DNA of 64,000 nucleotides from Turritopsis dohrnii (Eukaryota; Cnidaria; Hydrozoa; Anthoathecata; Oceaniidae), in contig BQMF02000001.1 in NCBI GenBank assembly GCA_027922465.2, positions 2,170,001 through 2,234,000 on the forward strand, written 5' to 3'. Each line of letters begins with the position of its first letter. Within the stretch, counting starts at the first letter, position 1. Position numbers and translations under genes: made by a program. Below are positions 7,067 to 64,000 of this stretch, one piece after another. The notes beneath the pieces are model-generated. The model was given only the letters and a program-made list of their open reading frames with translations, did not search any database and had not been told where the DNA came from.

Positions 7067-9077
7067 GGGGGAAACACCCCCAAAATTCGTAAAAATTTCG
7101 AAATTTTGATTTTGACGGTTTTCGGTACTTTAAACACTGTAGAATACGATGGACATATTGATTTTTTCATAATTGTATCGGAAAAGTGATAATTAAAGAC
7201 TTTTGTGATACAAGGTAGTAACCACTTCCTTAGTTATGCCCATAGCAACCGTTTGTTTATCTTGTTTTAGCCCCCCAAAATAAGTACTTTTCGCAGTACA
7301 TCTCTTCCACCCTTTAATATCTACTTTGCTACTTGATTTGTATTATCGAGTCTAAACACATTTTTGGAGTAACGGAGGTAGCAAAGTGAAAATCCATGCT
7401 TTTAGTTGTTGTCACTCTGTTAGAAGAAAAGTGAAAATTTTGTCATGTCTGATCGTGTAAAAAAATCAACTGTATATAGAAAGAAAAGAAAAGGTTTTAA
7501 AGGTACGCCGTCGTGGTCAAAATCTGTAAATAATGTAAATAGACGTGTAGATAATGATGTAAATACTGCTGAAGAAGTAGAAGATTCCCATACTCCAGAT
7601 GAGAGCAAACAACATGGACCATCAACTCCAAAGAAAACAATTTCAAGTCACAAAGTTCAGCAAATAAATTCCAGTACACCAAGAAAATTCAAAAATATAA
7701 CTGGATATAGACTAATAGACACTGAAATTCTGTCATCAATTATCAACAAGTTGGTTTGTTGTGTTTGTTTTCAGGAATCATTGACGTTGCATGAAAATAT
7801 GTCAGCACGAAAAGGTTTATGTTCTTCTCTTTTCATCCAGTGTAACAACTGCAACTATAGAGAGAATTTTACAACATCAAAGAAAGTGGGCAAGAGATTT
7901 GATGTTAACATCAGATCAGTGTACACTTTCAGAGCATGGGGACAAGGACACTCGGGAATGGAGAAATTTATGGCATTAATGAACATGCCACAACCGATGA
8001 CTACGAAAAGTTACGATAAAGTCGTAGAGTCTCTGTTGAATGCAACGAAACAAGTTGCTGAAGAAACCATGTCAGATGCAGTTGAAGAAATAAGAGAAGA
8101 GGCTGCAAAAGATGAAATGGACATTGCTAATATTGGAGTTTCTGTTGACGGTGCATGGACAAAGCGTGGATACTCTTCAATCAATTGTGTCGTCACTGCT
8201 ATTTCCTTGTTTCACCTAGAGCTGGGTGTTTACGATGCAGTGGCCAATTTTAACATTGGCAGAAAAGCCAGTGTTCTTATTTATGAGAACATGAATATGA
8301 TTCCAGGAAAGTATATGTCATATGGATGTTCTCGTTTGAATAATAAACGTTTATCAAGTTCTAAATACAAAAACAATTCGAAAAATAAATTGCGAAGAAA
8401 GATTCTGCGTGGTCGAAGGTTAAAAAAATCAGATAAAGACACTGAGAAAGAAGGAGAAACATATGCACCTGGAGGATTTTAAATTTGAGATATTTTACAC
8501 TTTTATAGATGTGTAATCTTGTTGTTTTAACTGGTTTTCTCATTTAATATAGAACATTTTTTTCTTCTTTCGTGTTTAAACGTGATTTCTGAAGAATCAG
8601 TTTTTTTGTACGCCGGGAAGGATATCTCGTGATTGGCTAATCAAAACTTCACCAAATTTTCAGTGGAAGTTCATTGCATCTGTATCTACATTTTAAATGA
8701 TTTAGATTTTGATAAGAAGAATTCTAACTTTGTAAAGTATGTCCAATCTCACTAAGTTTTCTAACATTAAAAATTCAAGAAGTGCTGACTCAGCAGAAGC
8801 AAAATTTTCAAAAATCTAAATCATTCATAATGCACAATCACCTTTTTAAAACTTCTTTACAAAGTTTGAGCTTCAGAGCATGTTATAATCCAGAGATATC
8901 TTTCCCGGGACAAAAGACCTTTTTTCCTTTTAAGACTTGTTTTCATGGTTACCATGGCAACCAGATACCATTATGAACCATTTTTTGAAATAGATTTTGA
9001 TATTATACAACATGATTGTAGTCATTTACATTTTTATTATAATTAAAAAAAAAAAGTCACCAAAGGGTGTTTCCCCC
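7067..9077 (+). mobile_element. Kolobok-like DNA transposon with 13-bp TIRs and TTAA duplication
   Basis: The element begins GGGGGAAACACCC at 7067-7079 and ends with the exact reverse complement at 9065-9077. TTAA flanks both sides (7063-7066 and 9078-9081). The paralogous sequence at about 5430-5500 reads straight through a single TTAA, which gives an empty site. TTAA duplications with G-rich termini are typical of the Kolobok superfamily; piggyBac shares the TTAA but not this transposase. The element is about 2.0 kb and holds one open frame at 7445-8482. Confidence 0.85.
7445..8482 (+). CDS. Internally deleted transposase of the Kolobok-like element
   Basis: The 345-residue frame from ATG 7445 matches, from memory, the N-terminal half of a transposase family annotated in animal genomes as 'Mutator-like transposase domain'. 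It shows a basic start, a Cys cluster (LVCCVCF and IQCNNCNY), MNMPQPMTTKSYDKV (about 180-193), then NIGVSVDGAWTKRGYSS (229-245), probably around the first catalytic Asp. Straight after VVTAIS (about 254) it jumps to LGVYDAVANFNIGRKASVL, which belongs near the C-terminus of the family. The middle, with the remaining catalytic residues, is missing, yet the frame stays open. The tail is rich in Lys and Arg. It could still bind DNA, but transposition activity is unlikely. Confidence 0.7.
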   Translation: MSDRVKKSTVYRKKRKGFKGTPSWSKSVNNVNRRVDNDVNTAEEVEDSHTPDESKQHGPSTPKKTISSHKVQQINSSTPRKFKNITGYRLIDTEILSSIINKLVCCVCFQESLTLHENMSARKGLCSSLFIQCNNCNYRENFTTSKKVGKRFDVNIRSVYTFRAWGQGHSGMEKFMALMNMPQPMTTKSYDKVVESLLNATKQVAEETMSDAVEEIREEAAKDEMDIANIGVSVDGAWTKRGYSSINCVVTAISLFHLELGVYDAVANFNIGRKASVLIYENMNMIPGKYMSYGCSRLNNKRLSSSKYKNNSKNKLRRKILRGRRLKKSDKDTEKEGETYAPGGF

Positions 9078-39679: not shown

Positions 39680-42600
39680 ATGATTGGTCATGATTGTCCT
39701 GATGCTTTACCTGTTAAATTTGAACCAAACTTTTCGGATGAAGACATCCAACAGTACGTTGAAGACAGAGAGATTATCTCAGGTAAACGTTTTTAAACTT
39801 TCGAATATTTTGAGAGATAAATTTATTTGGTTTTTATCGATGAAAAGCTTCCATGTCACCGTGGAAATGATTTAAAAAATGGTGCCTTTAAAATTTTGTT
39901 TTGTTTCTTTTTTCTACTATATACGACACAGGAAGATAACGGAGAGAAAATCTTTTGAGAAAAAAAAATTAATTCATCATTATTTTTTGTTGACATAACA
40001 AGTTGTTTAATAACGTTTCAAAAACCATAAAATTGAAAATAAATAAATAAATAATGTTTCTAAGCAACGAAGTTTAGATGGGACCTAATGCTATTACGAA
40101 GCCGGCCACCCCCTCTTCTTATTTATTTCTAGTGTCGTGTTTGTTTATTTTCCTCTTACAAAAATATAAGTCACGTTCAACTTTCTTGAGTCAATCATAA
40201 ACAAAGGATTTCGGAATTTGAAGTTGGCAATTTAGTTTTAATTAGATGTCCGGATTCTTATTGTAGCGGACTTCCTTTTATTGCAAATTAAACCGACAAG
40301 CTGTGTGAGCCATCTAATGACATCAGCTAATCTCATCTTTTGTTCGCACGTAAGAGCAATATATCGCTATTCTTTGTTGTTGGACATTTCTTTCTTTTTT
40401 TCTCACTATTGTCTTAATTAAAAGTTGCTATACACAATACAACACGTTGACGATGACTTTTCACAAAGGCAATTCTAGTAACTGGCGCAGGACTTCCCTT
40501 GAATCTTACGCAAGGATCGTCCTATAATTACCCTAGTGAATATAGCCACTGAATAGAAGGATTAGCGATTTCATGAATGCTAATTACTTGCCAATGCACT
40601 AATTAAAAAATATCATGTTTAGATAGCTGGCTCTTAATAAATTATACGTTAATTAGAAAATGTTACGAGACCTAGTCAATTAGGTTCCAACATGCGTCAT
40701 CAATGATATTTCCGGTCGCCTTAGTATTGGGCGTTTTCGAGTGAGGCTTTTGGCTTGAGGCGTTCTTTTCGATTTTAAAACGCTTGATTAAAGTGTCTCC
40801 TTTTATCGTTTGAAACAACGAGACATGGCCATAACCTCCATGTCCCAGCTCGAAACAACAAAGATTTGACCAGAAAGAATCGGGACACCATCAAATCATT
40901 ATTATGTTGTTTCATCGTTTTCTTGAATGTTTTTTCGTTTATCATTTTTTTTTTTTTTTTTTGAAAATCTTAATTAACAACAACAACAACACCTCGAAAA
41001 AGAGAAACGACGTTTAACGTCAGTAGACACGGCAAAATTTCGTAATCATTATCATTTCGTATTTTTTTGTGCGTGCGTAAATCGAACATTAATCATTTAA
41101 CATTTTGTCAAAAAAAAACCTATCAAGATGGTTACCAACAAACTTCACTCTCTCACGTGTAAAAAAAAATCCAATTTGCACGTAATTAGAAATTTCCTGT
41201 TCTTTGATCATTTGCGGCCTAAAGGGATAAAAAATAAACCACTTTGAAATTGGCTTGCCATCAACTATAATGGCAGACACGTCGTTGTGGTTACGAATTT
41301 AGAAATAGCAGTACATGTGTTTCCCATGGTCTTTTCGAACTTGCGCGAAACTCTTCTCGGAGAAATTTCTGAAAGTAACAAGGAATAAAAACAAACGATG
41401 AAAGTTTTTACCATCAACGTGCTAATTCGCGCGCGTCAAAACAATAGGGAACTTACGAAAGTACGACGGCAACGAAGGCGGCGACGTACAAGATATTCAT
41501 CTTGAATGAATTACAAAACAACAGAAATTGTACACTTGAGTCAAAAAGTTTGTATATAATGCCTATGAAGTTTGTTTCTTAAATTTTGAGAGACAGAATT
41601 ATGAAGGAACCAAGGAAAATTTATCCGTAGTACTGCTAATTTCACGTCTTCGTTTTCAGTACAACTTCAAAATATTACTTTTCACGTTGTGTGTAGAACG
41701 TGCAAATTTAATAATGACATTAGTAAACTTAAAAACATTTCCCAATAGTATAGCGTGAAACAGACTTCTATTCTAAATCAAATCTATGAAGTAAAGTGAA
41801 TCTTTTGTTTGCGTTGCGTCGTCGTCCACGTTGCCGTCATAGTTTCGTAAGGTCCCTAATATGTTTCCGAAAAACACTGATCACCTCAAATCTTACTTAC
41901 GCACCACATGACCTGTGTTTATTAGGAATTACGAAATTGTCCCATAAGTTTCAAAATGTTTTTGTAAAGTTAATGCCGTTACTCAAATATTTATGACACA
42001 CGGGATTGTTTTAATGATAGAATAGGGTTTCAAGCCACTCTGTTGATACATTTTACTGTATTTGTTATACAGATTTCGAAATTGAATCTGCTAAAAAACG
42101 TAAATAATGTTATATCAGGCAACAGAGTCTCAAAGCTAGTTATTTCGGAACGAAAATTTGCTTTAGTTCTCGTTTTCTGTTGCAACATTTATGCAACAGA
42201 TGTTCTATTAACACGAAAAGAGGTTTGCCAGTACATCTGAGGACAAAAAAAGCTACGTGACCTTTTTCAACGGAAGCCATATGTTCACTTTGACCCAGGT
42301 CGTTTTTCCGTTGCCAGTTCATTAAAATGACAATGAGAACCGGGGACGAACTTGTGAATCGCCTCCACCTTCTATTTTTACCTTAAGTTTTGTGCGCAAA
42401 ACTTCGTTTGCCGACCATGACGGAATTGCTTATCACGTTTCAGACGCAGATTTCCGATGACGTTTTTAACACATTCTATAAAGCCGGAAATATTTTCCGT
42501 TAGAATGCCATCATAATAAAACTTCTATCCTGCGAAAATATTGATCTTTGGCATATCTGCCGGTTATTTGTTTTCAAAAAAAAAATTTTGTTTGCATTCC

Positions 42601-45600
42601 GAAAATATTAGTTTCGCAAAAGAAAACAACAAAATTATGAATTTATGTTGATAAGGTCATTCTAAAACGTCCGTCTTTTTTATGAAAATTACATTGAGGA
42701 TTTTTTTTTTTTTACTTTGCCCCTGATTTAGTCCAATCAGAATTAATCTCTGTAATATTTTGCCTCTATTCCATGACGTGGTGTTGAATAGATCGATGTT
42801 TGGCAACGAGAGTTTGGCCGTAGGTTATATTAAAAATTGATCCCCAATTCAAAAATCGGCCGAGGACGCTCGTTATGTCAATTTTGTTTTGTAAAGGATT
42901 TATAAAACGCACTGGATGTTTGATTGAAAAAGCTTAATTTTATCACAGAAGTCGAAAAAAAAGAACTGGATATGTTTCTACGGATCTACAGTGTGTCCTA
43001 GATGCCAGACGCGTTGGAAGGACAGGGTGTGGCCATGGTGTGACGCATTTCCAATCCTTTCTCGTCGTTTTCCTTGTCAAACCTTTGCTTGGCAAACAGA
43101 CGTCATCCATGATTTTTTGTAATTAATCATTTTGATTTGATCACGAGGTCGAAGTTATTAAAAAAACCTGAGATAAAGTCCGAAAAACTGTCCGGTTGAA
43201 AGTAAGAAACAAAATCTTCACGTGGATAAATCTTCGAACAAAATTATGTACAAACTTAAAAAACAATGTGTAATAAATTTATGTAAAGAGTAAAGTTGAT
43301 GTCCCCACATCAGGCATTTTCCTCTATTTCTTAAAACAGAAACACTAAAATGATCTAAGAAACTTTGCCTTTCAAGGCCGATTTCTTACAGCTTTTATTT
43401 TATTTATTTATTTATTTATTTACGAATGTTTACCCAGGATAGCCTCTTCAGTTCCGTAAGGTACTGTTATCAATGAGGGTCCTGCGAAGGAGGTCCTAGA
43501 GCATTTAAAGCCCCCATTTGGGCTACGGAAGTTGTAATGACAGGAACCGCTCAACTAGACAACCACCCTAGACATCATTCCTACTCTACTACTGTTTTGA
43601 TTATTGTCATGCAAGGTATTTTAAACATAGAAACCATAATAAATTATGTAACATAGCCTGTGATATGATGGATGCATATCATAGCCTCATTGTAAGTGAA
43701 CTGAATATATTTTGATGATACTCGGTATGGTGTGATATGATATCATTTGATGATATTCGTAAAATTTTCCACAATCGAAAACCACATGTTAGATGATGTG
43801 AACAGGGACAGACCGTGTTATAGAAAAGACTGTTTCTCGAGTGACTGAAAGCTTCAGATCAAAATTTAAAGAAGCTCTCGGACTAAATCATTTCTTCCAG
43901 AAATCGAACTGCTATTATCATTATCCTATCGGAAAATAATACGATAGCTTATGACCTTTTATTTGTGTCTGTTAAAAAAAATTGTCCTATTTTTGAGGAA
44001 AACAACCTATTTTTTGCGATATGGAGTGAATAATTTTCATTCCTTTTTTTATATTGTGAAATGGTCTATTCATTTCATGATAGTTTGGTGGACATCAGGC
44101 TTTAAGTATTTCAAGCATGATTTTCTATCGTCAATTTGTAAATCGTCAACGGTGATATCACAAAGCCTCGAAAGCCAAAGTGATATCCCTATCACTGCCA
44201 AATGACGAAGGTTTTATATGCATAATTCAATTCTTATTTTTATTATTGTTTGACAACAGGTCCACGACGTTCAGTTCATTTATGGGAATTTCTACTCGAG
44301 CTTCTGATGGACGAAGCTCAATCGCCAGTCATCCAGTGGACAGATGAAGTGAACGGAGAATTCAAGCTAAAAAGCAGTGAAGATGTTGCTAGGAAATGGG
44401 GTCAGCGAAAACATAAGGAAGGCATGAACTATGACAAGCTGAGCAGAGCACTGCGGTATTACTACAGCAAAAATATCATAAAAAAGGTACGGTAAAGAAT
44501 AGGATTTGTTAGACACTGTATGCGTTTTGTATCCAATGTCAGTATGTGTTTAAGCATACGATATTTCATACCGAAGAAACCATCTTTAATAACGTTCTAA
44601 CATGCATACCTTCACCGGTTGTGATGTAACGTAGAAAGGATGTCAGAAAAGAAAACACATTCACGTTACCATTTAGATCGTTTCATTTAAGATCGTTTAC
44701 CAATAGGGTACAGTAGATTGTCACCATTTGTGTACCTATATCTGTAGACTTTCTATAAGTGGATCCAGGGTTGTGGAGTGAGAGTGGGAGAAGTGCAGTA
44801 TGATAAAATTTGTTCTCAATCTTAAATATCCATTAGGTCATTACCACGTTTTACTTCTCTATTCCAAATAGCTCAACTCTTCTTGAATGAATCCAACTCT
44901 GTTGTTTTGCTGCATGTATTGTTCGTCGATATTCAATTTGGCCTTTTTAGTTTTGTAAATTGATATGAAGGGAAGCGGAGTAAGAGGCACTCTATTCATG
45001 TCGAAATGAAACCATAATGTAGTAACATCGATAAAGCCTTTCGTAGGTGTTGGCAAGTTTTTGACAATATTATTTCATCTCTTTGAATCAGTGAATATGC
45101 TACCACGTATAACAAATTGCAAGACCAGAAAAACGCAAGAAATACCATGCTTCCAAACACAAAACAGCCGACAGTACGGTTTTGTTTGTCAACCGTTGTC
45201 AGATAATAGACAGATATTCGAAATGAATTTCATAACGTCGTTAATATATGTCTTTATCTTGTTTAGGTCAGTGGTCGTAGATTCGTGTACAAGTTTGTGC
45301 CATCCCCTGAAATGCACGCAGCTGTCAATGCTATCAAAGCTCACATGTTAAGGACCGGGCAAAAGGTCATTCCCACTGGGCCGTTTCCTCACCTACAAAC
45401 GCAAGATAAAACATCACTTATGTCTTCTACGAACAATGCCAAACCCTACGGTTTTTTTCCTAATTCGCGTAATTCTATTTCACCGCGTTTGGCTGCACCA
45501 AAATATTCCCTCTCGACATGTCATTCACCGGTACGCTGCCGGAGTCCACACCGACACGAAGCTGAAAGGTACGGAAGCCCACAGCGACATGACAGCGATA

Positions 45601-46727
45601 GTTACAGAGCTCCACGTCGACATGATGACGACAGGTACAGAGCTCCACATCGACATGAAGGTGAAATGTACGGTGAAGATAGAAAATTGTTTCGACCACA
45701 CCCATATGGATTTGAGTACATGTCGAAAATGAATCTATACAACGACGAAGAGCGGATTTTGCATCCCGGTAGAGCGGCTAATTTCCGAACACGCCATCAT
45801 TCTGAACGACAGTTACGTCAATCCGAACGTGAAATGGATTTATATCGAATGACGTCACCTACGGATTATCCCGAACACAAAACTTGTCATATCTCCTACG
45901 CAGAAGATAAAAAAATCAGAGAGCTGTACAGTCACAGTCATTCCTCCTCCTTTGGTGTACATTATACAGACCGGGATGATGTGATGCTGCGAAGAAAGGA
46001 AGAAATTGCTAAGCACAACGAAAAATACGAGTGCGACAATTCTAAAAATGGCTTTATCGATTTGTCAGCTACCAGGCATCATAAGCTCCCTTTACCACAC
46101 GTTGTTCGACAAGAATTTGACAGGCATACACGAAATCATCAAAATGCTTCGCCGAAATCACATCGTGTACAAGACATCATCGACTATCCCACTCGCCACC
46201 ATCATGAACGACATTACTCTTCTTCGATTTACGAGACTCAAAAACGAGAATTGAGAATGGAACCTTACTGTTATATGTATCGTCGCTACGCACCCATGGT
46301 CGACGCTGCCACGCAAACAAGTGGCGAACATAAGGAAAGAGACGCGTCATCAGAATTCGACACAAGGCCGCTGGAAACTGAAGACGCCTTTGTTGGCGAC
46401 GAACTTAAAGTTGAACGTTCACCGTCGGCGACATCGTCGTCACCTCTTAATATCAAAGACAGGATGTCGGAAGGGTCACCCGATGTATTCAGCAGTGCTG
46501 AAATGAATTCTCCCATATCCACACCCAACTCTTTGATTCATCATCCTCTAACGCCCGTCATGACGCCCATTCCACAACAGGTTTTAACATCCACTCAATG
46601 CAAGTGTGGTTGTATGGATAAAGTAGATTATCCAATCGCAAGTAGCGTTGCCCATAGTAACTCAAGTGTTCACGTGACTTCAGTGGCAAATGATACAGTT
46701 GTGGTTTTCCCCAAGGAAGTTTATTAA
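39680..46727 (+). CDS. ETS-domain transcription factor (ELK-like winged helix)
   Basis: Three exons (39680-39782, 44260-44486, 45267-46727) encode 596 residues. Exon 1 gives a short acidic start ([20 protein letters not shown]) ending in phase 1. Exons 2 and 3 carry the ETS domain at about 40-123: [31 protein letters not shown], the recognition helix [14 protein letters not shown], then [17 protein letters not shown] across the second junction. The two Arg that read GGA cores are present in RALRYYY. The domain is N-terminal and the KxSGxxFVYKFV ending resembles the ELK/GABPA groups. No Pointed domain is seen. The tail is low-complexity, His/Arg/Ser-rich, with four 11-residue repeats (203-246) and a Ser/Pro-rich stretch ([22 protein letters not shown]) that could be MAP-kinase sites. 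It is presumably a nuclear activator or repressor. Exact orthology is unsettled. Confidence 0.88.
41447..41856. repeat. 410-bp MITE with long TIRs and TA duplication, copy 2 (inverted)
   Basis: Starts GGGAACTTACGAAAGTACGA and ends GTTTCGTAAGGTCCC, with TA on both sides (41445-41446, 41857-41858). Its interior (TCAGTACAACTTCAAAATAT, CACGTTGTGTGTAGAACGTG) is the reverse complement of copy 1 at 37197-37605. It lies in ETS intron 1. Confidence 0.85.
43391..43575 (-). repeat. Retroposon 3' tail (SINE/LINE) ending in (TAAA)n
   Basis: On the minus strand, unique-looking GC-richer DNA ends ATCCTGGGTAAACATTCGT followed by (AAATA/TAAA)n. CCTGG-TAAACATTC plus a tetranucleotide tail is the 3' end of CR1/L2-clade LINEs and the SINEs that use them. 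The 5' side fades near 43575. It lies in ETS intron 1. Confidence 0.6.
45543..45674 (+). repeat. Coding minisatellite, 4 x 33 bp, in the ETS gene
   Basis: Encodes four 11-residue units of the form (S/A)P-x-RH-(E/D)-xxx-Y-(G/R): [44 protein letters not shown]. Frame is preserved because the unit length is a multiple of three. Confidence 0.9.
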
Positions 46728-59100: not shown

Positions 59101-60337
59101 CGCATTGCTTTGTCGTCTCTTGGCTCGCCATTCTGGAATGAGGCGCTGTTGTCTTCAGAAGATTATGATCCGTCACTGGCATGGTTTTTGCTGTCGTTGA
59201 AAGCAGTCCTAAGGAAATCCTATGCATGCTGTTTGATTACTATTCCTGTACACTTGGTGGAGGTATATAAGGCTTTTGAAATATGCTGACATCATTTTTA
59301 TTCCTCTTAGCTTTTCTTTATTTGCAACTATAAATTGTTGACGTATTGTTGTCCTTGGAATACTAAATGTGTTTCCCTTCTCTTCGTTTTAGAACGAAGT
59401 TTTTGTTCAACGTCTTGAGGGTTGTTGTGATACCGTCATTAGACTTGATTCGTTCGCTGGATTATCCAATGAATCCAATCTGCTCTATAACGACTATCAT
59501 GGTATATTTCCCAGAATGCTTCCAGACCGTTGATTCCTAGAAAGCTTTGCGCTGTTTCAATGTTTTCTTCTTTTTTCTTCTCCATTTCTTTTTTTAGGTC
59601 TGTTTCAACTGGTTTCGCATACTCAACTGAATTGCATCACCGGTCACGTGATGGATACTTCCGATTTAGCATTCAAGTTGAAACGAAAAAAGTTTTCCAT
59701 CGAAGTAAATGTTTGTTTGTTTTTTTAATGGAGTTTTTCAGGTTGCTATGAGTTATTGAACATGATTGATTGATCGTATTGAGTGAGCAAATTTGCTGAA
59801 AAATCACTGCGAAAGAGTGCATTTCTATAGAAATATGCACACTATTTTAATAAAAATGCTCTTCATCGCAGTGACTTTTTGACAATTTTCAGTAAATCTT
59901 TCACGAGTCATAAACACATACTACTTTTTCACTTGTCGCATTTTCTCCAATAAACGCCGCCTAAAAAAGAATGGAAAAAAGTCCAATATTAGAAGCATTA
60001 TTAGTGATCAACACTTCCATATCAGTAAAGAAAAGGCATTGCCACTGCGATGAAGAGCATTTTCATTGAAGCAGTTCGTATATTTCTATAAAAATGCACT
60101 CCTTCACAGAGAAAATATAAATATCGATAGCGAGTCGGGTTGAATGGTTTCGTAATAATATTAACGTTTTAACTGAAATTTAAAAATCTTTCGTCCGTTT
60201 TCATGACTGATTTTCTGTTCGTCTAGAAACTTCACCTTCCACCTGATATATCGGAAACCGCAAGCCGTTCGAACGTCAATACTGCTTCACATTTATGCAC
60301 TAGTAGCGCACCGGTCAATCATTTGTTGGAATTTTAG
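56182..60337 (+). CDS. ELP4: Elongator complex protein 4 (ELP4 / PAXNEB)
   Basis: Ten exons (56182-56311, 56392-56427, 56828-56949, 57073-57174, 57322-57437, 57900-57987, 59083-59262, 59393-59501, 59598-59704, 60227-60337) give 366 residues with all junctions in frame. The protein matches ELP4: LPVGTKPSLHNNQLLISSGI, PSLDVLLGGGLAVGTVLL, LAEGVATGQSLFIAS, LKIAWRYQ, RGALQFGHYFDLS, LRIALSSLGSPFWN, VIRLDSFAG, NDYHGLFQL and the end [29 protein letters not shown]. ELP4 is a RecA-like ATPase-fold subunit of the Elp456 ring that works with Elp123 in tRNA wobble-uridine modification, mainly in the cytoplasm. It is shorter than the human protein (424, from memory). Exon 6 uses an unusual acceptor (GCAAG|T); an alternative acceptor at 57777 would bring an early stop. 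AATAAA follows at 60344. Confidence 0.92.
58227..58717. repeat. 491-bp MITE with CAGCCCTCTGAATT ends and 6-bp duplication, in ELP4 intron 6
   Basis: CAGCCCTCTGAATT at 58227 is mirrored at the right end (AATTCAGAGGGCTG, finishing at 58717). CAATAA flanks both sides (58221-58226 and 58718-58723). GACGGCAAAA/TTTTGCCGTC motifs repeat in both subterminal regions. A 6-bp duplication does not fit hAT (8) or Tc1 (2). No coding frame. Confidence 0.82.
59788..59895 (+). repeat. Small palindromic MITE, copy 8
   Basis: GAGCAAATTTGCTGAAAAAT...AAAGAGTGCATTTCTATAGA...ATGCTCTTCATCGCAGTGAC; lies in ELP4 intron 9. Confidence 0.68.
60037..60113 (-). repeat. Small palindromic MITE, copy 9 (partial, reverse)
   Basis: CACTGCGATGAAGAGCATTT and AAATGCACTCCTTCACAGAG are the reverse-orientation core; both ends are missing. 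It lies in ELP4 intron 9, about 140 bp from copy 8. Confidence 0.65.
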
Positions 60338-60349: not shown

Positions 60350-60418
60350 AAGAGCAACTGCTTGGCGTGTTTACTTAGATTCACCTAGAGTCTACTCAAG
60401 TTAACACCATTTGAAGAC

Positions 60419-60513
60419 AGAAGGTGCTAGCGTTGTCGTGGGTGGAGACAGAAGGTGGTGGCGTTGTGGGTGGAGACAGAAGGTGGTGGCGTTGTCGTGG
60501 GTGGAGACAGAAC
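60419..60513 (+). repeat. Minisatellite, about three units of ~31-34 bp
   Basis: GGTGGAGACAGAAGGTGGTG and GCGTTGTCGTGGGTGGAGAC repeat with a 3-bp length variant; lies just 3' of ELP4. Confidence 0.85.
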
Positions 60514-60789: not shown

Positions 60790-61010
60790 AGCGGCGTAAG
60801 CATGCGCAGTATTGAAATCTCGCTCGTCGTTTGTACGATGGCCCTGAAGGTTCATTGATGCGCGCACAAAAATATCCTGCGCACGAAATTTTTTCAGTTG
60901 CGCGCGCATAAAAAATAAAATTTTTACGCACGCACAAAAATTTTTATGCACGCGCACAAAAATTTTTACGCACGCACCAAATTTTATCATACGCGCGCAA
61001 ATATAGAAAT
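60790..61010. repeat. CpG-rich subterminal repeats, probable left end of an integrase/HECT transposon
   Basis: A cluster of (GCGCACAAAAATTTTTACGCACGCAC)-type units, alternating CGCGC and A/T-runs, occupies about 60855-61000 immediately upstream of the integrase gene. Such clusters commonly bind transposase near the ends of DNA transposons. An exact terminus cannot be fixed because the right end is outside the window. GTCAGCGGCGTAAGCATGCG at about 60787 is a candidate start. Confidence 0.5.
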
Positions 61011-61141
61011 CACCGCTTGTTAATTGAAGTTAATAGAAGCCTCGAATTTCGGTCTTGATTTTACACAGATTTCGTGAAAATATTAATAAATATATTTGCA
61101 TTACTATAATACATGCCAATATTATATTAATAGGTAGTGAC

Positions 61142-62431
61142 ATGACAAATGCGAGTGATTTACCTTGCTTAAAGTCCAGTGGGAATTTAAATAGAGATTC
61201 TTTGATAACCTCCTACTTTTCCCAGGGATATCACAATGTAGAAATATTATCTTTTCTGGCAGTTCATCATGATATCTATATAAGTTTGTCAACGTTAAAG
61301 AGGACTTTGTCTCGACTTGGCCTTTACAGAAGACCTCCTGCTGGTACAGAAGATAGGGAAGAAGTTAAAAGGCTGGTTTTAGAAGAACTATCTAACAGTG
61401 GAGGTGCTTTGGGTAAGCCTTCAAACCTTCATTTCGTAGTTATTGTTTGAAATTCTTATCTCTATATCTTGATGTTGCTAGGCTATCGAAAAATATGGAG
61501 TATAATCAGAAATATGGGAGTACCTGTTAAACGAGCTTCCGTGATGGAAATCCTCAGAGAATTAGACCCAGAAGGTGTGAATGGTCGCAGGAAAAGAAGG
61601 CTTAAAAGAAGAGTGTACTCAGTGCCCGGACCTGATCGTCTTTGGCACATTGATGGGTATGACAAGCTCAAACCCTTTGGATTTAGCATCCATGGATGCA
61701 TCGACGGCTTTTCAAGGAGAGTTATTTGGTTAGAAGTCGGGGTGTCTAACAAACAACCTGAAGTAATAGCACATTACTATATTCAAGCAGTAAAACAACT
61801 CAAAGGTGTGCCCACGCGAATCCGTTCTGATGATGGTACGGAAAACAGTATTGTTGAAGCAATACAAATTGCTTTGCGTTCCTCTCACACAGATGAATTT
61901 CAGGGATTGGGGAGTTATATAATTGGCACATCAACTGCAAACCAACGCATCGAGTCTTTTTGGTCTCAATTCAGGTTTGATCGGATTATTTGGTGGCGGA
62001 ATTTCTTTATAGAGATGGTTAATATGTCAATCCTTGATGGTGGTAATCCAGTAATTGTAGAATGTGTTCGCTACTGTTTTATTACTTTAATTAGAAATGA
62101 CCTGACTGAATTTGCACGACGATGGAACAGGCACATTTTAGCTCCAAGTAACAATTGTATTTTACCACGTGGACGCCCAGATGTCTTATATTTTGTTCCA
62201 CAACTTTATAGTAGTCAACCATTTAAAAAGAACATTGACATGGATGAAGTTGAGGAATTTGAAGATCCCAGGTTTTCTATTTGCTTGGAAGATAACTCGC
62301 CACAATTCTTAGAGTTCGCAGAGATAGTTTTGGGAATGAACAACATAGATGGGACTTCACGACCAAAAACATTGAAAGATGCATTTAAAGTTTATTTCAT
62401 TTTGATAGAAGCAGTAAATGAATATATATAA
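61142..62431 (+). CDS. Spliced IS3-like integrase/transposase (IS3EU-type)
   Basis: Two exons (61142-61412 and 61482-62431), joined by a 69-bp GT-AG intron, give about 406 residues from the ATG before TNASDLPCL; an earlier in-frame start cannot be excluded. N-terminal helix-turn-helix segments are visible: NVEILSFLAVHHDIYISLST-LKRTLSRLG (about 41-70) and GYRKIWSIIRNMGVPVKRAS-VMEILRELDPEGV, like the HTH_21 of IS3 OrfB. The rve/DDE core follows: LWHIDGYDKLKPFG (first Asp), RIRSDDGTENSIVE (second Asp), NQRIESFWSQ (Glu). All three are present, so it may be active. The C-terminus has the family block RHILAPSNNCILPRGRPDVL. From memory this protein is multicopy in cnidarians and fish and corresponds to IS3EU-type DNA transposons. 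It faces the HECT-like gene tail to tail. Confidence 0.78.
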
Positions 62432-63021
62432 CAACCTGTGTCTGCACAATAAGGAAACCAAACCAAAAAGGAAAAAACAAATTCTAACTGACCCAATGAA
62501 CGTATGAAATGACCCAAACAATAATAAGCAATAAAAAAACGGAACCCTAAAAGCTATATATAATAAATGAACCAATGATATTTAGTAATGAATATATAGA
62601 ACAAAAACACAGCGCAGCTAACAAGAAAGCTCGCAAAAAAGAAACGAAAATAACAGCAATAATTAAAGTTCTTTAAATAAAAAACATTTGTGACAAAACA
62701 ACAACAACAGATAAACAGTTTGGTTCTAACAAAACATTTGGTCTCTATCCTTAAAGGAGGAAGCATCAAAGTTTTTTTCCACAAAATTTTATTCCTTTAA
62801 ATCTTAGATAATAAAACAACAACAAAAGAAAGCAAATAGTCTCTGAACTGAAACTTTCTTAAGAAAAACTAGCATACTTTAAAGAAGTTATGAAAGGGCT
62901 CGTTACTGGTATTGATGTATATATCATTAGAATGACATTCACATGTTAACTGAAAAACAAAAAATGCATAAAAAAGGGAACATTTTTTCAGTTTTTTAAG
63001 GGTGAAGTTAGATAAAAAAAT
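62432..63021. other. Spacer between convergent integrase and HECT-like genes
   Basis: About 590 bp of A-rich DNA holding both 3' ends. AATAAA-type signals are present on the plus strand (for example about 62562) and TTTATT on the plus strand for the minus gene. No further gene seen. Confidence 0.5.
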
Positions 63022-64000
63022 TTAAACTTTCCCAAAACCAGGTGAATTCAATATGTCTTCTATAATGTTCTGAGAAAAAAATTCACCAGCATATCGTCTT
63101 GATGCAGGGAAATTAATTTTAAACTGACAAGTATTCACTTTCACACGCTCGTTTTCCAAAAAGTCATGATCAAAGAGCAATTCAATTTTGCTTGTGGGCA
63201 AGTACTTTGACCCAGTAAGGAATACTAAAAAATCTTCTAATGAAATGCTTTTCTCTGACCATCTTTCATTTATACCATCTTCTAAATCAACCAAGTCTAT
63301 ATATACCATGCTTTTTACTTTCCCAAAGCCAACTTCGTCAATAAAATTATGTAAGTTGTAAAGAATATCTTCCTCTATTTCGATCTTTTGATCTTCATTT
63401 GAATGGACTGAACTGAAGAGTCCCTTTACATCTTCAGAAGATACGCTTTCATACAAAAACAATTTCATAGATTCTTCTGGGAATTTTCTGAGAACATCTA
63501 GAACTCCTCCACACGAAAGTCCATTCATAAATTTTTGAATTTCTTCAAGTTTCGATGATATGATACAATGATGAGCAATGGTTTTCAAAAGTTTTTCCTT
63601 TTCATCAAAGGATGGCTTAAATTTAGTGTAGCCAAGATCGTAACGTTCATTGAAATCTGTCATGCATTGATTAAATGCAGCTTCATTAGAACAATTGCTG
63701 ACTTCTACCAACTTTTCTCGCAAGTCTACATCAGGAACATCACTTATTGTGCAGTAGCAAGCTTCAGCACCTTCATATTAAAATATGTATTTTTTGTAAT
63801 TTAATGGGTATATTTGAATAAGATAAACATTATAAGTCAATCAAAATCACAATACAAAATTTCCTTACCTGTTATATAACCACTTAGCCCTTTGCTTAAT
63901 TGATGTGGAGTGTCATATCCATGTAACAAAGCCAGAGCAACAAACTGACCAAAGCAATAGTAGTCACCACTTCCAACCTTTAACAAATCATGCACAAAAA
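63022..64000 (-). CDS. HECT-domain ubiquitin-ligase-like protein, C-terminal part (runs off window)
   Basis: Two minus-strand exons are visible: one entering from the right edge and ending at 63869, and 63770-63022, joined by a GT-AG intron in frame (GLSGYIT-G-AEACYCT). The first encodes DYYCFGQFVALALLHGYDTP, a HECT N-lobe block. The second ends with DFLVFLTGSKYLPTSKIELL, then VNTCQFKINFP and IIEDILNSPGFGKV. This is the HECT C-lobe with the catalytic Cys in NTC (codon 63129-63127) and the usual hydrophobic tail. HECT ligases accept ubiquitin on this Cys and pass it to substrates. Closest by memory are G2E3-like proteins expanded in fish and cnidarians. The N-terminal part is outside the window. 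Position next to an integrase suggests transposon cargo. Confidence 0.75.

Follow-up and report, generated by a model that had tools for sequence, protein, structure and literature searches.

The window (the whole 64,000-nucleotide stretch analysed, C1:2170001-2234000) contains most of a transposon which, judged from its sequence, is an autonomous-looking cut-and-paste element of the IS3EU type, composed of a gene for an IS3-like DDE transposase (the integrase below) and a gene for a predicted HECT E3 ubiquitin ligase. The two genes almost certainly belong to one mobile unit. The ligase has probably long been a working component of the transposon and not a chance passenger, because several other families in the genome carry a matching pair, and we consider it quite likely that the transposon has a working ligase dedicated to it. 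The features within the window are as follows.

60828..60833, no strand: left 6-bp target duplication, cgtttg (its right copy lies beyond the window)
60834..64000, no strand: in-window part of the IS3EU-type transposon, 3,167 of 5,337 bp (ends from copy comparison and target duplication)
60834..60981, no strand: left terminal inverted repeat, about 148 bp, starting TACGATGGCCCTGAAGG (from the inverted match to the other end)
60917..60985, no strand: CpG-rich repeats of 20-22 bp inside the terminal inverted repeat
61142..61412, plus strand: integrase exon 1 (ATG at 61142, N-terminal HTH-like part)
61413..61481, plus strand: integrase intron, 69 bp, GT..AG
61482..62431, plus strand: integrase exon 2, with the DDE core (Pfam rva_4) and the stop
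62432..63021, no strand: spacer between the 3' ends of the two genes, without an exact terminal motif
63022..63770, minus strand: HECT exon 2, with most of the HECT domain, the catalytic Cys (motif VNTCQFKINFP) and the stop
63771..63868, minus strand: HECT intron, 98 bp, GT..AG
63869..64000, minus strand: 3' part of HECT exon 1 (ATG at window-equivalent 65174, outside the window)

When the locus with the window element (L009, C1:2229000-2238999) was compared with other copies, the transposon extended over 5,337 bp, from window position 60834, and not from 60790 as given in the first-pass annotation, to window-equivalent position 66170. Its right end is at C1:2236170, so that 2,170 bp of it lie outside the window. 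There, beyond the HECT gene, extension to the right, a check proposed in the annotation, revealed the matching inverted end together with the 6-bp target duplication. The two terminal inverted repeats were 91% identical over 150 columns, and both begin with TACGATGGCCCTGAAGG. The CpG-rich repeats that had been noticed on the outer side of the integrase are present and overall span 60834 to about 61000, but they are the terminal inverted repeat itself, and a CpG-rich subterminal cluster apart from the ends was dropped as a feature. Weak self-matches of these repeats at 41064 and 44798 were inspected and judged to be chance. The outer ends TACGATGG..CCATCGTA are common to L009-L016. Neither sequence had an exact match between the two genes (62431 to 63022), where transposon ends would have contradicted the first-pass annotation, and elsewhere in the window they occurred at 7145 and 33053 only. 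A unit border between the genes was ruled out by this missing exact terminal motif and by the location of both genes inside the repeats at 14 loci.

Other repeats were observed outside the element. A MITE-like inverted repeat (window 59787-60112), with 70-nt arms that are 84% complementary, lies a short way to its left, and pieces of this repeat recur at two places in L017 with 87-91% identity. The left flank close to the element contains a 31-bp tandem repeat of 3.3 copies (window 60415-60512), and a 33-bp tandem repeat of 3.8 copies, whose period is a multiple of three, is located at window 45545-45671.

The search proposed in the first-pass annotation found the same pair with identical outer ends elsewhere in the genome. 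At eight same-family loci (L009-L016), both ends could be read, the 6-bp duplications were exact (cgtttg, cagaac, agtttc, gatttc, gtatat for both L013 and L014, taaaaa, and gaagac), and the HECT gene was inside, whole or in part. L013 and L014 are apparently one insertion copied by local duplication, because they share their flanks, so these eight loci represent seven independent insertions. The two are about 11 kb apart on C128, with identical flanks and target duplication, and the locus itself seems to have been duplicated. Inserted or rearranged stretches were present in L010, L011, L012 and L020, while L015 and L016 were internal deletion derivatives.

Among all 24 longer loci (L009-L028 and L037-L040), both ends and both genes, whole or in part, were found at 14 (L009-L016, L020, L025, L026, L037, L038, and L039). 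The 6-bp duplication was exact at 13 of the 14, including L020 (gtatcg), L025 (cataac), and L026 (TTTAAC), and matched at 5 of 6 positions in L038; the ends of L037 were TATGGTGG..CCACCATA. A counted HECT match was located within the fetched stretch at 22 of the 24 loci. L022, whose nearest HECT match was 8.9 kb off, and L023, where the integrase was preceded on its own strand by HECT pieces, were not counted as clean examples. The HECT-like pieces in L023 (305-1524) may be part of this element or of an adjacent one. L025 had its HECT gene inside the ends, yet on the strand of the integrase. The genome also holds a family in which a C-terminal HECT piece follows downstream on the integrase strand (C335, C452, C376, and C102).

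We searched the whole genome (435.9 Mb, 891 contigs) with two integrase queries (231 rows) and three HECT queries (341 rows), keeping the best-scored candidates, and merged the rows into 222 integrase places and 204 HECT places among the matches listed; the HECT gene is thus multicopy and not single copy. At least 107 of the 204 listed HECT places had a listed integrase within 10 kb, with a median gap of 810 bp, and the pairs were tail to tail in 99 cases, on the same strand in 6, and head to head in 2. By chance, 2.1 pairs would be expected in all, or about 1.0% per HECT place, and when the HECT places were shifted by 50-200 kb in both directions (six shifts), only 0-3 of the 204 were paired. 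Two adjoining elements, or a transposon next to a host gene, might mimic one unit, but with repeats and target duplications enclosing both genes at 14 loci and a chance pairing of about 1% per HECT place, we regard this as extremely improbable.

From the integrase side, 106 of the 222 places had a HECT match within 10 kb and 116 had none among the matches listed, which counts against a dedicated ligase. These counts are lower bounds and do not show a HECT gene in every integrase family; there may be families truly without HECT among the integrase places that lack a listed one. An earlier count with a single HECT query had paired at least 16 of 125 integrases. We dropped it as a refutation of the pairing because it largely reflected query sensitivity: L039 and L040, picked from integrases without a listed HECT match, both had a divergent tail-to-tail HECT gene that passed the Pfam model (L040 was counted without resolved element ends). 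Similarly, L037 and L038, chosen at divergent HECT places without a listed integrase, both had a tail-to-tail integrase inside inverted repeats. These integrases were only about 38-41% identical to that of the window, with HECT still present. In the L037 copy, a stop divides the HECT protein into two frames, and its relatives have longer open frames. When lists of integrase and HECT proteins were used to look for linkage in other species, they gave one 1,574-bp coincidence, which was too short for both genes and was rejected.

The integrase and the HECT-like gene were both where the first-pass annotation had put them, encoding proteins of 406 aa and 684 aa, each in two exons. The break of the window integrase at residues 90/91 was also present in L017, L023, L024, L025, L027, and L028. 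The protein matched Pfam rva_4 (2.9e-37), with weaker matches to rve and HTH_21 below cut-off. The three acidic residues reported before are D148, D207, and E248, arranged as D-58-D-40-E; in an alignment of 22 proteins, D148 and D207 were invariant, and E248 was at least 90% conserved. The closest relative among 120 listed of 1,146 was from the hydrozoan Hydractinia symbiolongicarpus, with 71% identity, which points to a probable cnidarian, perhaps hydrozoan, host. The window integrase had no Pfam match to an HHCC zinc domain upstream of the core, a Ginger1-type H2C2 zinc finger, or a C-terminal OTU or Ulp1 domain.

The HECT protein has an N-terminal region, a CxxC..CxxC knuckle, and a HECT domain. 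The window HECT fragment scored below the Pfam HECT cut-off (21.6 versus 23.9 bits), as did the L037 protein (15.2 versus 23.9), and the full 684-aa protein had no Pfam match. A homology search with the full 684 aa yielded nothing significant among 7,992 candidates scored, whereas one with the 292-aa HECT fragment had found 19, and viral contigs, scanned once, contained no relative. The missed Pfam model and the lack of a significant full-length relative both speak against a dedicated ligase. The HECT label for the window protein was assigned because relatives passed the Pfam model (P0128, P0138, L025, L038, L039, and L040), because a profile of 17 relatives matched PDB sequences of such enzymes, and because of the predicted fold. 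With an E limit of 1, the profile retrieved 46 PDB sequences, every one of them named as a HECT-type ligase, with AREL1, E6AP and others in the lead. The predicted structure of exon 2 (pLDDT 83, pTM 0.55) gave five Foldseek matches with E of 0.001 or less, namely the HECT domains of WWP1, Smurf1, WWP2 (twice), and Smurf2, and the best 50 matches listed were all HECT entries. Their TM-scores by query length were about 0.25-0.5, a plausible range for part of a two-lobed domain. The catalytic Cys noticed earlier stands in T216-C217, which is invariant in the HECT alignment A3, and the T-C motif was kept in all six families examined (L009, L025, L037, L038, L039, and L040). On sequence and modelling grounds, the partner gene product is therefore a predicted HECT E3 ubiquitin ligase.

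A single-sequence fold prediction for the N-terminal region of the relative P0139 was too low in confidence to use (pLDDT 35). By eye, a stretch upstream of the HECT domain in L040 (1819-3450) resembled a UBX-like fold, but this reading was unsupported by Pfam, had no PDB sequence match, and was set aside.

To assess selection, L009 was compared by Nei-Gojobori counts with two decayed copies, L017 and L024; the near-identical copies of the window family had too few changes for a judgement. The dN/dS values were 0.245 and 0.276 for the integrase, and 0.260 and 0.181 for HECT, with similar dS for both genes (0.44 and 0.56; 0.38 and 0.40), and the fragment L028 gave 0.149 and 0.353. Within HECT, the comparison with L024 gave a dN/dS of 0.13 for the catalytic part and 0.25 for the N-terminal part. 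Residues 321-440 of the L017 HECT reached 0.62, which is probably due to a frame break in this decayed copy. These values indicate that the HECT gene is kept by purifying selection between families. Against a dedicated ligase stand the decayed pairs, which were near neutral: 0.69 for the integrase and 0.77 for HECT in L017-L024, 0.53 and 0.69 in L019-L027, and 0.54 and 0.93 (HECT) in L027-L026; such values fit decay after insertion. A further point on that side is the faster change of HECT at greater distance, with a dN of 0.51 versus 0.28 for the integrase in L009-L019, where dS was saturated. Passenger genes do occur on transposons, and the HECT gene might be one, captured and without a role for the element. 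Given the pairing across families whose integrases are about 40% identical, the retained Cys and the constraint between families, we consider this very improbable.

In L037 (937-5284) and L038 (799-5638), the integrase and the HECT protein both start with a short CxxC..CxxC zinc ribbon. For the integrases, the Zn_Ribbon_1 matches were 3.7e-4 and 5.7e-5, respectively; for the HECT proteins, the ribbon was matched by DZR in L037 (0.0044) and recognised by eye in L038 (Zn_Ribbon_1, 0.5). All were under the Pfam cut-offs, and neither protein of the window has a ribbon, which again weighs against a dedicated ligase. The shared ribbon is possibly a common docking or DNA-binding module, and it suggests that the two proteins may be recruited to a common DNA or partner. 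From the conservation, the selection and the ribbons on both proteins in these two families, we infer a functional link between the ligase and the integrase.

We speculated on how such a link might operate. The transposase would bind the repeat-rich ends, cut the element and insert it, and the ligase would transfer ubiquitin to a protein in or near the transposase-DNA complex. Our leading specific step, held tentatively, takes as substrate the stable transposase-DNA complex of the element itself; the transposase would then be removed after strand transfer, so that the host could repair the junctions, or its level would be limited. Alternatively, the ligase may target a host protein of silencing or restriction for degradation, which would keep the element transcribed or accessible. 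VANC of plants is a counter-silencing protein borne on a transposon, and the faster change of HECT relative to the integrase at larger distance is what might be seen in a protein that faces the host. Counter-silencing proteins on transposons also include the fungal TET/JBP genes, found on IS3EU as well according to passages of PMC12730594. The N-terminal, presumably substrate-binding part is nevertheless constrained between near families (dN/dS 0.20 and 0.25), and the presence of a ribbon on both proteins in two families agrees better with a shared site than with a host target elsewhere. Both points are weak, and we hold repressor degradation with the same tentative confidence. It is one of several possible roles, as is stabilisation of the transposase, which the first-pass annotation had also proposed. 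A third idea is that at the cut ends the ligase might guide proteins of host DNA repair or of the checkpoint, a role proposed for the ubiquitin-linked OTU and Ulp1 domains of Ginger1 in passages of PMC2836005; we consider it improbable. As the zinc ribbons suggest a common site, we rank two readings about level, one in which the transposase complex is removed or controlled and one in which a repressor is degraded, with repair third. Between the two level readings, removal or control of the transposase complex is the one to which we would commit, with less than even confidence.

The element agrees with the IS3EU/GingerRoot type in its TA..TA termini, 6-bp duplication, and IS3/IS481-like DDE core without an HHCC zinc domain. 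According to passages of PMC10045372, IS3EU has been in Repbase since 2013, with an IS3-like DDE transposase, TA..TA ends and usually 6-bp target duplications; those passages mention no HECT gene for it, whereas here HECT is the regular partner. Fungal IS3EU elements belong to the same superfamily, have TAYGG..CCRTA ends, and carry an enzyme gene opposite in orientation to the transposase, which is an alpha-kinase gene in TET-bearing elements; their partners in the passages of PMC12730594 are this kinase and a TET/JBP dioxygenase, not a ubiquitin ligase. Ginger1, with Hydra among its hosts, also ties an integrase-like transposase to the ubiquitin/SUMO system, but through modifier-removing OTU or Ulp1 proteases fused to the transposase C-terminus, and it differs in its H2C2 zinc finger, GPY/F motif, and ends (PMC2836005, in part). 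The RAG1-RAG2 or Transib-type system has two proteins per transposon as well, and RAG1 has a RING ubiquitin ligase domain; its transposase family is unrelated, and the RING lies inside the recombinase (PMC4411706, in part). Cellular HECT E3 ligases (AREL1, E6AP, and the NEDD4 group) share the HECT fold and catalytic Cys with the predicted ligase, which is transposon-encoded, only 8-18% identical to the cellular ligases in the fold comparison, and has its own N-terminal region.

A full-text literature search, with subscription papers mostly outside it, did not find IS3EU together with HECT, though a HECT ORF in Repbase is possible. Such a search also found no combination of HECT, terminal inverted repeats, transposase and ubiquitin, and no transposon-borne HECT ligase appeared among the titles and abstract openings listed. 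The published links between transposons and ubiquitin that we found, in passages of two papers, were the modifier-removing proteases of Ginger1 (PMC2836005) and the RING of RAG1 (PMC4411706).

We venture, as a rather unlikely generalisation, that animal IS3EU elements depend on their own HECT ligase as a central part of transposition, which would be brought to the ends beside the transposase, perhaps in some families through the matching N-terminal zinc ribbon, and would ubiquitylate it so that the joined complex is dismantled. In bacteria, the Mu transposase is cleared by a host unfoldase. If true, the ligase would be a self-encoded eukaryotic counterpart of that unfoldase. HECT genes are multicopy in fish and cnidarian annotations, and some of these may be transposon genes and not host ligases. 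The integrase and the ligase form a two-component system for trial in a heterologous cell. A separate ligase gene kept with the integrase across divergent families would provide a natural test of the part of ubiquitin in transposition, and its candidate roles in complex disassembly, host counter-defence, and repair would thereby become testable.
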